DNA from: Bacillota bacterium
GTDB lineage: Bacteria; Bacillota; Sulfobacillia; DUSP01; JBFMCS01
Reading direction: 5' to 3'
NCBI GenBank assembly: GCA_040754315.1
Contig: JBFMCS010000014.1
Coordinates: 62,001-126,000, forward strand
DNA: 64,000 bases
The notes under the pieces are model-generated. The model did no database searches, was not told the origin of the DNA, and saw nothing but the letters and a program-made list of their open reading frames with translations. A program made the translations under genes and the position numbers. Positions 29,334-36,006 of the stretch are shown here, piece after piece. Every line of letters begins with the position of its first letter. Position 1 is the first letter of the stretch.

Positions 29334-29640
29334 GTCTTCTTTCCCCTTCTCCGCCCCTGGACTCCCTCGCCATGCGACAAGCCCCGGGGCGGTGTTCCCG
29401 CCTGTGTCCAGTCCCTCCAATAAAGCGTGTTTCCACGGAACCTCACGCAAAACCATCCCAGGGAGTGCCTGTGGGTGGTAAGGATGTGGCACTCCCCCTG
29501 ACTGCCCGGAGATTCTCCGGACGGCGCCCGGGCCCTCCGGGGGCTCCCGTCCAGGGCCTTGCCACAGGGTCTCCTGAGGACAGAGAATCGCCCCCCTGTC
29601 ATCCCGGGGGGCAGGTACAAGACCCATCGGGCCTCTTAAT
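29334..29640. other. Gap between mttB and the broken SDR gene
   Basis: No convincing gene. Minus-strand sequence 28 bases after the mttB stop (29592-29613) can pair a run of six C with six G around a 10-nt loop; there is no clear T-tract. An open frame continues through the gap from the SDR fragment but has no family resemblance. Confidence 0.5.
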
Positions 29641-31128
29641 CTACTCCGTGCTTAGCCTGACCCCGTAGTGGGCTTCAGCCTCGTTGACGATCCCCCTCAT
29701 ACTCTGGGCAACGCCAGGCTCTATGGGCTCGACCTGGTAGGTCTTGTAGATGCGCTCGGCCTCTTCATAGGCCCTCTCCGTGAAGTCCTTCCCGCCTTCC
29801 GCCAGCCAGGACTCGCGGTTCTGCCGGTTAATCAGCTTGTTCATGGATAGCTCTTTCCGGAAGTTCTTGTAGGTGTGCTCATGACTCACGAACTCACCAG
29901 CGGCGCCTACCTGCCTGATGACCTCTAGAGCCAGAGTCTCCTCATTCACAGTGATCCCTGTGACGACTTCCTTGATCATGCGAGCTATCTCGTTATCCAT
30001 TACCAGCTTGGCGTAGTCGAAGGTGATGCCCTGGCCCAACATTCCCAGGCCGTAGACGATGTTTACACCCGCGAGGGCAGCCACTAGGCCTGTGAGGGTC
30101 GTCTCGTGAGTTGCCTGGGCATCAGGAATGTGGCTGTCAGCCTACCCGCCCGCGGCCCAGCTGGGCAGGTTATAGTATTGTGCCATCCTCGCAGTGGCGG
30201 CGCTAAACAGTGCCAGCTGGGCGCTTCCCACCGGTGAGGTGGTATGCCGCAGGTCGAAGGCCAAGGATGACGAGCCATAGATCACGGGGTGCCCCTTGCG
30301 GGCCAGCTGGGCCAGCACTATGCTGGAGAGGAGCTCCGCGTTCTGGATCACGATGCCTCCCGCCAGGGTCACCGGGGCAGTGGCTCCCGTCATGCACATG
30401 TCTATGAAGAGGCAGGGGGCGCCCGCCCGGGAAGCCTCGATGATCACCCCGGTCACATCGGGGTTAAGTATCAAGGGGCTGTTAGGGCATATTGTGGCGC
30501 TGTAGATGGGCCTTTCAGCGAACTTGTCCCTGCCACCGGCAATCGCTGAGGCCAGTTCGATTATCTTCCGGGCATTATAGGGGTTACCGGAGCCAATGAA
30601 GCTATGCTTGGTTGTGTTGTGGAAGATGGCCTCGGCATTGTGTATGTGCTGGACCTCACCTGGCACGTCATTAGCGCCCACTGGTCTCTCCAAAACGGAT
30701 ATCTGGTCCATGGAATCGCACATACGAGTGGCGTTAGCCACGTCTTTCTTGGTTGTCCTCCGGCGCTTCCTCGTGAAGACATCGATAATGTCCACGGCTT
30801 CCCCGAAATTGGTGAAGACCACGTTCTTCCCAGACTTCAGCCAGATGTCGTCCTCCGTCTTTCTCCCAGCTAGAAGAATGGCACTGGGAGCATACCGCAC
30901 TGCGTCCTCCACAAGATATGGCGGGATCTTCACGAGACTGCTCTTTGTGTCGATCCTGCATCCCCCGCCGTGGTAGATCTCCTGGGCCTCCTTATCCAGC
31001 ACCCTCACTCCCACACCGTTGAGCACCTCCAGGGTGGCACAGTGTATGAGGTGCACCTCGTCATCGGTGAGGAAGTTGAGGGAAATGCCATCCAGGGACC
31101 CAAAGCCCGCCCTCATACCGGTTATCAT
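29641..31128 (-). CDS. mttB: Trimethylamine:corrinoid methyltransferase MttB, pyrrolysine-containing (in-frame TAG)
   Basis: Transfers a methyl group from trimethylamine to a cognate corrinoid protein. I join the two open segments across one in-frame TAG (30142-30144), giving 495 residues, the length I recall for Methanosarcina MttB. The amber is codon 329 within AQYYNLPSWAAGG-TAG-ADSHIPDAQ, which lines up with the pyrrolysine site of MttB (LPSYVAGS-Pyl-SDAK). Sequence before (FLTDDEVHLIHCATLEVL; APVTLAGGIVIQNAELLS; GSSSLAFDLRHTTSPVGS) and after the TAG (VNIVYGLGMLGQGITFDYAK) both match the family. ATG 31128 follows AGGAGAGG. The final stop is also TAG. No corrinoid protein or pyl gene is within the window. 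Confidence 0.9.
30142..30144 (-). other. In-frame amber codon, probable pyrrolysine (codon 329 of mttB)
   Basis: The only stop inside an otherwise intact 495-codon frame. Its position coincides with the active-site pyrrolysine of MttB, where the residue binds and activates the methylamine. The 166 codons after it keep the family sequence with no further lesion, which is not expected for a random nonsense mutation. Confidence 0.85.
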
Positions 31129-31516
31129 CGCATCCTCTCCTAGTGGCGTATTCTGGGAAGCCTGCCTGGCAAAGACAGCCATCCCATCCGGAGACAGTGG
31201 TTACCGTCACGTCACTGGTCCCCTGACCAGAGGGCCATTTCCTGTGGCTCTCACCTCCTTGATGCAGGTATTCTTGGTGGCCCTTCCAGCGTCCTTCAAA
31301 CCCAGGGTTCTATCCTCAGGGAAACGGCTCTTAGAGAAACCCTTGGAACTCAGGTAGGATTCCCGGGCCTTGGGGAAGGGGCGTGTAGCCTTGGCGCCCA
31401 GCCGGTTGACAGGAAAAGGCCTCAAATACCACGGGATGGCGAGCCTTCACCAAGGTCAGAAGGGCCCCTGACCTTCCAGGTGCTCCGGGCGACAGGCGTG
31501 CAGGGTTCGAGCTATT
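31129..31516. other. Upstream region of mttB
   Basis: About 390 bases. Holds the mttB ribosome-binding site (AGGAGAGG) and an inverted repeat CTGGTC-CCCT-GACCAG at 31215-31230, whose arms match the GntR half-sites at 22986-22996 but with a wider centre. A minus-strand open frame of 72 codons (31207-31425, TTG start) shows no family resemblance and is not called. Confidence 0.45.
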
Positions 31517-34000: not shown

Positions 34001-34996
34001 CTATCCCAATAAAGGCAGGATTGCCTGGCGCTTGGAACGCTCAAGGGCAAAAGCTTCCTCAATCTTGGAGGCGCTGGTGGCCTTTCCCTTCCTGAAGGGG
34101 TTCTTTGCGGTGTCATGAAAGACATGGGGGAACAGCAGGTCCACGAAGAGGACCCGCTTTTCAGAATCTGATAGTGGGCGCTCCCTTTCGTATGCCTCCA
34201 TCATGGCAAGAAAGAGAGGACCGTCCCAGCCCCCGCGCCGCTCCATTGCCTTGTTCGTGATCTTCCTGAGATCCCGTGCAGGCAGGTCCAGGGTGATGTC
34301 ATCCAGATCGATGATCCACACACCACCATCTCCCATGATGGCGTTGCCCTGGCCGTAGTCCTGGTGACACAGGTTACCCGTGACCGAAGCCTGCTCTACC
34401 CATTGCCCGTAGCCGGAGCCCTCCAGGAGGGCCAGCGCCTCGGTGGCCATGTCCAGCATTTCTGGAGCTAGACGCTGGTAGATATGCCCAAGTGTGCCTC
34501 CGCGTTCGCTGGCCACCTGCCTCCACTCGGAGAGACGCTGGATCATGGAGGAGTAGTGATGGGGCCACTTGCCTAGTTTTGTGGACACCTGTACCCCCGC
34601 TGGAATCTTGAAGCCCTGGGATGACCTGTGAAAGTGGCCCAGGGCTTCTAAGGCCATGAACAGGTCTTCTTCCCGCTCGAGAACGAGCTGGCGACCCTCC
34701 ACCCACGAAGAAAGACTGAAGGCCATCCCCTCCTCCTCAACATGCAGGGAATCCCCGTCAGGCCTGAGCAGGCATGGCACGCGGCCGCCTCGGAGTGAGA
34801 TGTACTCCTGGGCACAAAGGCTGAACACCACCCTCCTGACAGGACGGGCGTGGCGTTTTAGGGCAAGGGCGCCCCTATCCGTGGCCACCAACCATATGGC
34901 CTTCTTCGCCTCTCCCTGGATGACCCTGATGTCTCTTACGATAACCGGGTATTGCGCCAGGACACACCGGGCCGTGTCAAGGAACCCGCCGCTCAC
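34001..34996 (-). CDS. CotS-family spore coat protein (kinase-like fold)
   Basis: A 331-residue protein of the CotS/YutH group, with an aminoglycoside-phosphotransferase-like fold. Recognisable are ALALKRHARPVRRVVFSL (kinase lysine region), the catalytic-loop equivalent NLCHQDYGQGNAIM and the metal-site VWIIDLDDITLDLPARDL. The GTG start at 34996 overlaps the stop of the upstream CotS gene (GTGA), with GGAGGGGGA before it. Its product is associated with the spore coat; whether it phosphorylates a sugar is unknown. Paralogue of the next gene. Confidence 0.9.
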   Translation of the reverse strand: MSGGFLDTARCVLAQYPVIVRDIRVIQGEAKKAIWLVATDRGALALKRHARPVRRVVFSLCAQEYISLRGGRVPCLLRPDGDSLHVEEEGMAFSLSSWVEGRQLVLEREEDLFMALEALGHFHRSSQGFKIPAGVQVSTKLGKWPHHYSSMIQRLSEWRQVASERGGTLGHIYQRLAPEMLDMATEALALLEGSGYGQWVEQASVTGNLCHQDYGQGNAIMGDGGVWIIDLDDITLDLPARDLRKITNKAMERRGGWDGPLFLAMMEAYERERPLSDSEKRVLFVDLLFPHVFHDTAKNPFRKGKATSASKIEEAFALERSKRQAILPLLG

Positions 34997-36006
34997 CTCA
35001 CATCCCCCTCCACAAGCCGCCTCACAAGGGCGACCTTCTGGTCTTCCAGTGCCACTATGGACTCCAGTTTCTTGAGAAACTTGTGCGCTGACCACTCCTT
35101 TTCCCTCTTCTCCAGGTGCTTGGTGGCTATGCCAAAGAAGAGATGAGGAAAGAGGAGGTCCAGGCCAAGCACCTTCAAGTGCTCAGGCATCAGGGGGTTC
35201 ACTTCCCCGTAAAGCCTGGTCAGTTCAAGGGCAAGGTCTAGATCCCAGGCGCCTCGCTTCTTCATGATCTTGTTCAGGATCTTGCGGATGTCCCTGGCAG
35301 GCAGGTCTACAGTTAGTGAATCAGTATCAAGAACGCAGATCTCTCCGGAGGCAGTGAGTACCAGGTTTCCCGCGGCGAAGTCCTGGTGACACAGGTTCCC
35401 GGTGGCTGTGACCTGGTCCACCCAGGCACGGTACTCCCCGCCGTCCAGCCCCGCCAGGGCCTCACGGGCCATCTCCATGTGCCTTTCCAGCACTCCCCGC
35501 ACTCGCCGGGCGAAGGGAGAATCGCCGGCCTCCTCAAGGTATGGATGGAGGCGCCCTACTTGGCATAGGTAGATCTCCGGCCAGGTTCCTAGGTGAGAAC
35601 GCGCCTTGCTACCCGTGGGCGCTTTGAAACCCTCTGAGGCCTTGTGAAACCTGGCAAGTTCCCTCACCATCATGGCCAGTTCCTTGGGGGAAGAGTAGCT
35701 GGGGGTCCTGCCTTTCACGGCCAGTGCCAGCGTGTAACAGGTGCTGTCCACAACTGAGTAGAGTTTCCCGTCATGGGCTTTGACCAGGGTGGCCAGCCTC
35801 ACTCCTCCCTTTCTCAGGTGCTCTAGCGCCGCTATGAGGAACAAGAGACGCTCCTCACCCATGGGGAGCTTCTTCAGCACCATGAGACCCTCGCTTGCCT
35901 CTACCCACCATACGGCCTTCTTTGCCTTCTCGGTCTCCTCCCTCACGTTAAACGTGGTTACAGGGTAGTTTCTGAGAACGGCATCTATAGTGTCACGGCT
36001 CGTCAC
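34993..36006 (-). CDS. CotS-family spore coat protein (kinase-like fold), paralogue
   Basis: A 337-residue member of the same family. Matching blocks: KAVWWVEASEGLMVLKKLP, NLCHQDFAAGNLVL (catalytic-loop equivalent) and ICVLDTDSLTVDLPARDIRK. The GTG start follows AAGGAGG by ten bases. It is the first gene of the minus-strand run cotS-cotS-GT4-galU. Sequence resemblance to the downstream copy is clear but moderate, so the duplication is not recent. The upstream 36007-36218 region holds no other gene. Confidence 0.9.
   Translation of the reverse strand: MTSRDTIDAVLRNYPVTTFNVREETEKAKKAVWWVEASEGLMVLKKLPMGEERLLFLIAALEHLRKGGVRLATLVKAHDGKLYSVVDSTCYTLALAVKGRTPSYSSPKELAMMVRELARFHKASEGFKAPTGSKARSHLGTWPEIYLCQVGRLHPYLEEAGDSPFARRVRGVLERHMEMAREALAGLDGGEYRAWVDQVTATGNLCHQDFAAGNLVLTASGEICVLDTDSLTVDLPARDIRKILNKIMKKRGAWDLDLALELTRLYGEVNPLMPEHLKVLGLDLLFPHLFFGIATKHLEKREKEWSAHKFLKKLESIVALEDQKVALVRRLVEGDVR

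Follow-up and report, generated by a model that had tools for sequence, protein, structure and literature searches.

The mttB locus

The window analysed here, a 64,000-nucleotide stretch of the genome of a Bacillota bacterium, carries on its minus strand (29641..31128) a gene for a predicted pyrrolysine (Pyl)-type trimethylamine–corrinoid methyltransferase, mttB, assigned by translation, by the TIGR02369 and PF06253 profiles and by comparison with PDB entries 7xcl and 7xcm. From the ATG at 31128 the frame comprises 495 codons with a single in-frame TAG at codon 329 (30142..30144, minus strand), in the context NLPSWAAGG-TAG-ADSHIPDAQ, and closes with a second TAG as its terminator (29641..29643, minus strand). 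Reading through UAG-329, the predicted pyrrolysine codon, would give a protein of 495 aa. A preliminary description of this DNA had reported the coordinates, the 495 residues and the TAG at codon 329, all of which are confirmed by translation of the minus strand (31128..29641), but had left the strand of the gene unstated; the plus strand in the mttB frame is full of stops.

A likely ribosome-binding site, AGGAGAGG (31134..31141, minus strand), lies 5 nt before the ATG. An alternative in-frame ATG that adds 18 codons upstream (31129..31182, minus strand) is a less likely start, and two relatives of the gene (L044 and L045) are also 495 aa long from the matching start. The closest three relatives terminate with TAA, in contrast to the TAG of the window gene. 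Were this terminal UAG also read as Pyl, a tail of 13 sense codons followed by TGA (29599..29640, minus strand; read by eye) would arise. Among the window genes examined there are no pyl genes, no corrinoid protein gene and no activase gene, in agreement with the preliminary description.

Family assignment and active site

The curated equivalog model for trimethylamine–corrinoid methyltransferases, TIGR02369, matches the joined protein with 638 bits (cut-off 525 bits) over profile positions 2-469 of 469, running straight through the TAG, and PF06253 matches it with 325 bits. The best sequence match among PDB entries is 7xcl/7xcm, MttB of Methanosarcina barkeri, and phmmer places the TAG codon opposite the X by which 7xcl denotes Pyl334. 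This register bears out the earlier claim that the TAG occupies the exact active-site position of MttB. Modelled with AlphaFold2 (pLDDT 90.5), the joined protein adopts a TIM-barrel fold, for which Foldseek also returns 7xcl/7xcm as the best structural match (TM 0.94).

Gly110, Met249 and Tyr364 are named active-site residues of the M. barkeri enzyme, and Gly110 and Tyr364 are reported to be invariant in Pyl-MttBs (PMC9842639). Their equivalents in the window protein are G109, M244 and Y359 in the 495-aa numbering; across 50 aligned UAG-containing sequences the Gly and the Met are conserved in every case (50/50 each) and the Tyr in 49/50. Thr111 of M. barkeri MttB is replaced by Glu, as in 40 of the 50 UAG sequences.

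Phylogenetic placement and substrate

In our tree the window MttB and three sequences from Bacillota MAGs (69-71% identity) form a deep, fully supported branch, which sits within the Pyl-MttBs of Desulfosporosinus, Ca. Formimonas and others. The motif that follows the Pyl codon is DSH in the four members of this branch and DSK in the other 46 of the 50 UAG sequences. The replacement of DSK by DSH makes a different substrate possible. The genes near the relatives point in the same direction: a corrinoid protein is encoded directly upstream in L044, a BCCT transporter near L046 and, at a greater distance, a binding protein of the glycine-betaine type (OpuAC) in L045. Moreover, a second UAG-containing mttB in the same genome, on contig C53, scores higher (760 bits) than the window gene. 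Against these observations, the window protein lies above the equivalog cut-off for trimethylamine methyltransferases and keeps the known active-site residues. We thus consider it unlikely, though well worth keeping in view, that the enzyme is Pyl-dependent but acts on a substrate other than trimethylamine, e.g. another methylamine or a quaternary amine.

No corrinoid-protein or transporter gene lies beside the window mttB. The corrinoid proteins of its own genome that are nearest to the one in L044 are two on contig C52 and one on contig C27 (68-69%). A search of plasmids revealed no copies of the window mttB by DNA, and by protein just distant (<60%) MttB relatives.

Constraint across the TAG codon

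The window mttB was compared with its three relatives (approximately 70% identity) by codon position. Differences at positions 1/2/3 amount to about 0.23/0.14/0.67 before the TAG and about 0.28/0.19/0.61 after it. An untranslated stretch would differ in pattern; the part of the gene after the TAG is thus under protein-level selection, as is the part before it. To this can be added the distribution of the codon itself: in 78 relative loci from other genomes, gathered by peptide patterns that exclude the Pyl codon, a TAG stands at exactly the codon 329 position in 68. A chance in-frame TAG is ruled out by the full-length TIGR02369 match, the register with the Pyl of 7xcl, the constraint past the TAG and the 68/78 conservation.

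An in-frame stop would nevertheless most simply be taken as the mark of a broken gene, and many genes of this genome do end in UAG. It could be argued on these grounds that the TAG is a real stop, whether through pseudogenization or sequencing error, and that only a 328-residue fragment is made. The TAG, however, sits at the single codon where Pyl-MttBs have UAG and where 68 of the 78 relatives have it too, the constraint is equal on its two sides, and the genome encodes Pyl machinery (see below). We regard this reading as very improbable, and as excluded by the constraint past the TAG together with the conservation of the codon. Readthrough by another residue, through a near-cognate tRNA or other suppressor, would account equally for the constraint past the TAG, but is scarcely credible given that the genome has its own tRNA-Pyl(CUA) for this codon, together with the full set of synthetase and biosynthesis genes, and that the position corresponds to the catalytic Pyl334.

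Pyrrolysine machinery in the same genome

The genome that contains the window spans 2.92 Mb in 65 contigs and is rated 100% complete and 3.63% contaminated. The preliminary description had proposed looking beyond the window for pyl genes and for mttC and ramA homologues. Every pyl component named was found on one contig (C43), which carries, in order, tRNA-Pyl(CUA), pylSc, pylB, pylC, pylD, pylSn and an mtbB with an in-frame TAG; the genome also encodes corrinoid proteins and two activases of the RACo/RamA type. The tRNA was detected by ARAGORN (L003 9118-9189) and is predicted to adopt a cloverleaf fold with a lengthened anticodon stem. PylSc (TIGR02367, 345 bits) and PylSn (TIGR03912, 117 bits) lie above their cut-offs, PylB, PylC and PylD each exceed the curated cut-off (456, 381 and 248 bits), and the MtbB encoded after pylSn is likewise above cut-off at 525 bits. 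Together with the mttB on C53, this brings the UAG-interrupted methylamine methyltransferase genes of the genome to two mttB and one mtbB.

Since a complete gene set for making and decoding pyrrolysine is present in the same genome, the sequence data suggest that the in-frame TAG of the window mttB is almost certainly read through as pyrrolysine. Because the assembly consists of 65 contigs with a contamination rating of 3.63%, and the pyl cluster is on another contig than the window, it could be asked whether binning has mixed two organisms here. In tetranucleotide composition, however, the piece with the pyl cluster correlates with the window at 0.85, a value as high as that for the window's own contig; across other pieces of the genome the values are 0.74-0.86, and for pieces of other organisms they reach at most 0.50. 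This match makes mis-binning of the pyl contig unlikely, and another genome of the same order carries both pylSc and a UAG-mttB. We therefore consider contamination of the bin a highly improbable source of the association.

The distribution of these genes was assessed across the wider lineage. Among the three genomes of the order, pylSc and a UAG-mttB, both above cut-off, are found in two, and neither is found in the third, which is 99% complete. In the class, for which 151 genomes were compared, pylSc is confined to three, and these are also the only ones whose MttBs include an internal TAG; no such MttB occurs in the remaining 19 genomes that encode MttB homologues. Counting alone puts the probability that two such trios coincide among 151 at approximately 2 in a million, a calculation that overstates the case because the genomes are related. 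The complete pyl set and this co-occurrence support the earlier proposal that the bacterium decodes UAG as pyrrolysine, with insertion at codon 329 itself being predicted.

UAG as stop and as predicted sense codon

UAG also serves as an ordinary terminator in this genome. In 488 kb comprising 362 predicted genes, the terminators are UAG in 143, UGA in 157 and UAA in 62, and within the window UAG ends 21 of 58 predicted genes. The release factor 1 gene, prfA, is present (527 bits). As UAG ends approximately 40% of predicted genes and prfA is retained, the codon appears to be in dual use, and full reassignment of UAG without RF1 can be rejected. Both UAG-mttB genes, in the window and on C53, hold one internal and one terminal UAG. 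Because UAG is a common terminator, including in these two genes, efficient reading as Pyl at every UAG is not feasible unless extensions are tolerated. Dual use fits the view that bacteria manage Pyl through regulation rather than codon avoidance (PMC3941956).

A search for PYLIS-like RNA structure after the TAG found none beyond chance in the window mttB (z = +0.66) or in mtbB (z = +0.81); for the second mttB the folded segment was located downstream of its codon and has no bearing on that gene. A coding-score scan of the 488 kb for TAG-separated segments recovered mtbB and nothing convincing beyond methyltransferases, in a test that is weak, both mttBs having been missed. One readthrough candidate (L153, TAG at 923-925) was discarded as its joined product has no Pfam match, and in L050 the UAG of an aminotransferase ORF next to an mttB proved to be the terminator of that ORF. 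With three genes found in which UAG is read, as predicted, as Pyl, and approximately 40% of genes in which it is a stop, this genome lends itself well to studying the two meanings of the codon.

Paralogues without pyrrolysine

A non-Pyl mttB lies on C43 (L003 7346-8836, minus strand), divergent from the tRNA-Pyl gene. It encodes Val (GTT) where Pyl would stand, keeps the other Pyl-type active-site residues and scores 626 bits on TIGR02369; a score above the cut-off of this model is thus no guarantee of Pyl. The Val-type MttB groups with sequences that have Ile, Leu, Met or Ala at the Pyl position. In a quick tree this clade falls inside the Pyl-MttBs, but the nesting is not significant by the AU test (p = 0.117), with which placement outside is also compatible.

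A pair of MttB genes of Ca. Acetocimmeria pyornia (L165, contig C302, 3249-4727 and 7149-8702), 93% identical and approximately 2.5 kb apart, have TAG in one copy and TGG (Trp) in the other at the Pyl position, with a TAG-containing mtbB and then pylSc downstream. The differences between the two by codon position (33/11/80) show that both are under selection. Either the two form a natural Pyl-to-Trp pair, or the base in question was misread in sequencing.

A tentative and at present doubtful proposal unites these observations: the window gene may found a distinct four-member, DSH-type subfamily of Pyl-MttBs that acts on something other than plain trimethylamine, and the Pyl-MttBs of pyl-encoding Bacillota may repeatedly have given rise to sense-codon paralogues in which the Pyl-type active site is largely preserved, the Pyl codon being replaced by one for Val in this genome and by one for Trp in Ca. 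Acetocimmeria pyornia, where the 93%-identical UAG copy lies close by.

Outside the MttB family, an MtmB homologue of the window's genome (L025, C23:70475-71830) has Met at the position of Pyl202, with a corrinoid protein gene just upstream (L038). It is possibly an MtqB-like quaternary amine methyltransferase; a non-Pyl MtmB homologue of a methanogen has recently been shown to use tetramethylammonium and choline (PMC13044021). Two TGA codons seen inside another of the genome's own MttB genes (L013) are located upstream of its likely start.

Metabolic setting and proposed mechanism

The genome encodes 26 full-length MttB-superfamily proteins plus fragments, 16 B12-binding_2 regions, several of which score above the TIGR02370 cut-off, and CODH/acetyl-CoA synthase components (CooS, AcsC, AcsD, AcsE and AcsV). 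Nine of the MttB-superfamily genes are found with several corrinoid protein genes on contig C52 (151 kb; L136-L142), where the products of two corrinoid genes (L027 and L028) are nearly identical. Within the window, two adjacent genes for CotS/CotI-type spore coat kinases (34001-36006, minus strand) point to a spore-forming lineage.

In the mechanism that we propose, UAG-329 would be decoded by tRNA-Pyl(CUA) in competition with release factor 1. The tRNA would be charged by the split synthetase PylSc and PylSn with pyrrolysine made by PylB, PylC and PylD. In the resulting enzyme the substrate, a methylamine and most likely trimethylamine, would bind to the pyrroline ring and be activated there; its methyl group would then move to a cognate corrinoid protein, whose gene would lie elsewhere in the genome, and from there into the tetrahydrofolate/Wood-Ljungdahl pathway. 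The natural reading of the gene content is thus a route from methylamine via MttB and a corrinoid protein to tetrahydrofolate and Wood-Ljungdahl carbon metabolism, in which we infer Pyl insertion, the trimethylamine substrate, the partner corrinoid protein and the flux in this organism from sequence. Overall, we are highly confident that the window gene encodes a genuine pyrrolysine-containing MttB, predicted from a spore-forming-type Bacillota bacterium with Wood-Ljungdahl genes.

Comparison with known systems

Bacterial use of Pyl in methylamine methyltransferases is established (PMC6778437, PMC7593587, PMC8318568, PMC3941956), and the window mttB is a well-supported new example of this known Pyl-dependent methylotrophy rather than a new phenomenon. 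A well-documented pyrrolysine user is thereby added in a Bacillota order that has been little sampled (three genomes, two of them with pylSc), and its MttB is one that ordinary annotation would split in two.

MttB of Methanosarcina barkeri (PDB 7xcl/7xcm/7xcn; PMC9842639) shares with the window protein its fold (TM 0.94), the Pyl position, the Gly110/Met249/Tyr364 set and a full-length alignment. The two differ in sequence (approximately 40% identity), in the Glu that replaces Thr111 and in the bacterial setting of the window gene, from which methyl groups are expected to pass to tetrahydrofolate, not to coenzyme M. The glycine betaine methyltransferase MtgB, a non-Pyl member of the MttB superfamily (PDB 2qne, 9yce), has the same fold (TM 0.91), with 29-30% identity in structural alignment, but lacks Pyl, whereas the window gene has the UAG and a Pyl-type active site.

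The gene order of the pyl cluster is that reported for the bacterial cassette, pylTScBCDSn (PMC3941956), from which the locus described here departs in having a UAG-mtbB directly after pylSn and the Val-type, non-Pyl mttB divergent from tRNA-Pyl. Close counterparts are also known from Bacillota such as Candidatus Formimonas warabiya DCMF, Desulfosporosinus and Sporomusa (PMC6778437). Their Pyl-MttBs have UAG at the same codon, and Ca. Formimonas and other Bacillota likewise combine a pyl set with separate pylSc and pylSn and many MttB-superfamily genes per genome: 82 mttB in the DCMF genome (PMC6778437), compared with the 26 full-length genes here. From the Pyl-MttBs of these and other Bacillota the window protein is set apart by its sequence, 45-57% identical to theirs, and by its position on a separate deep branch with the three MAG sequences.
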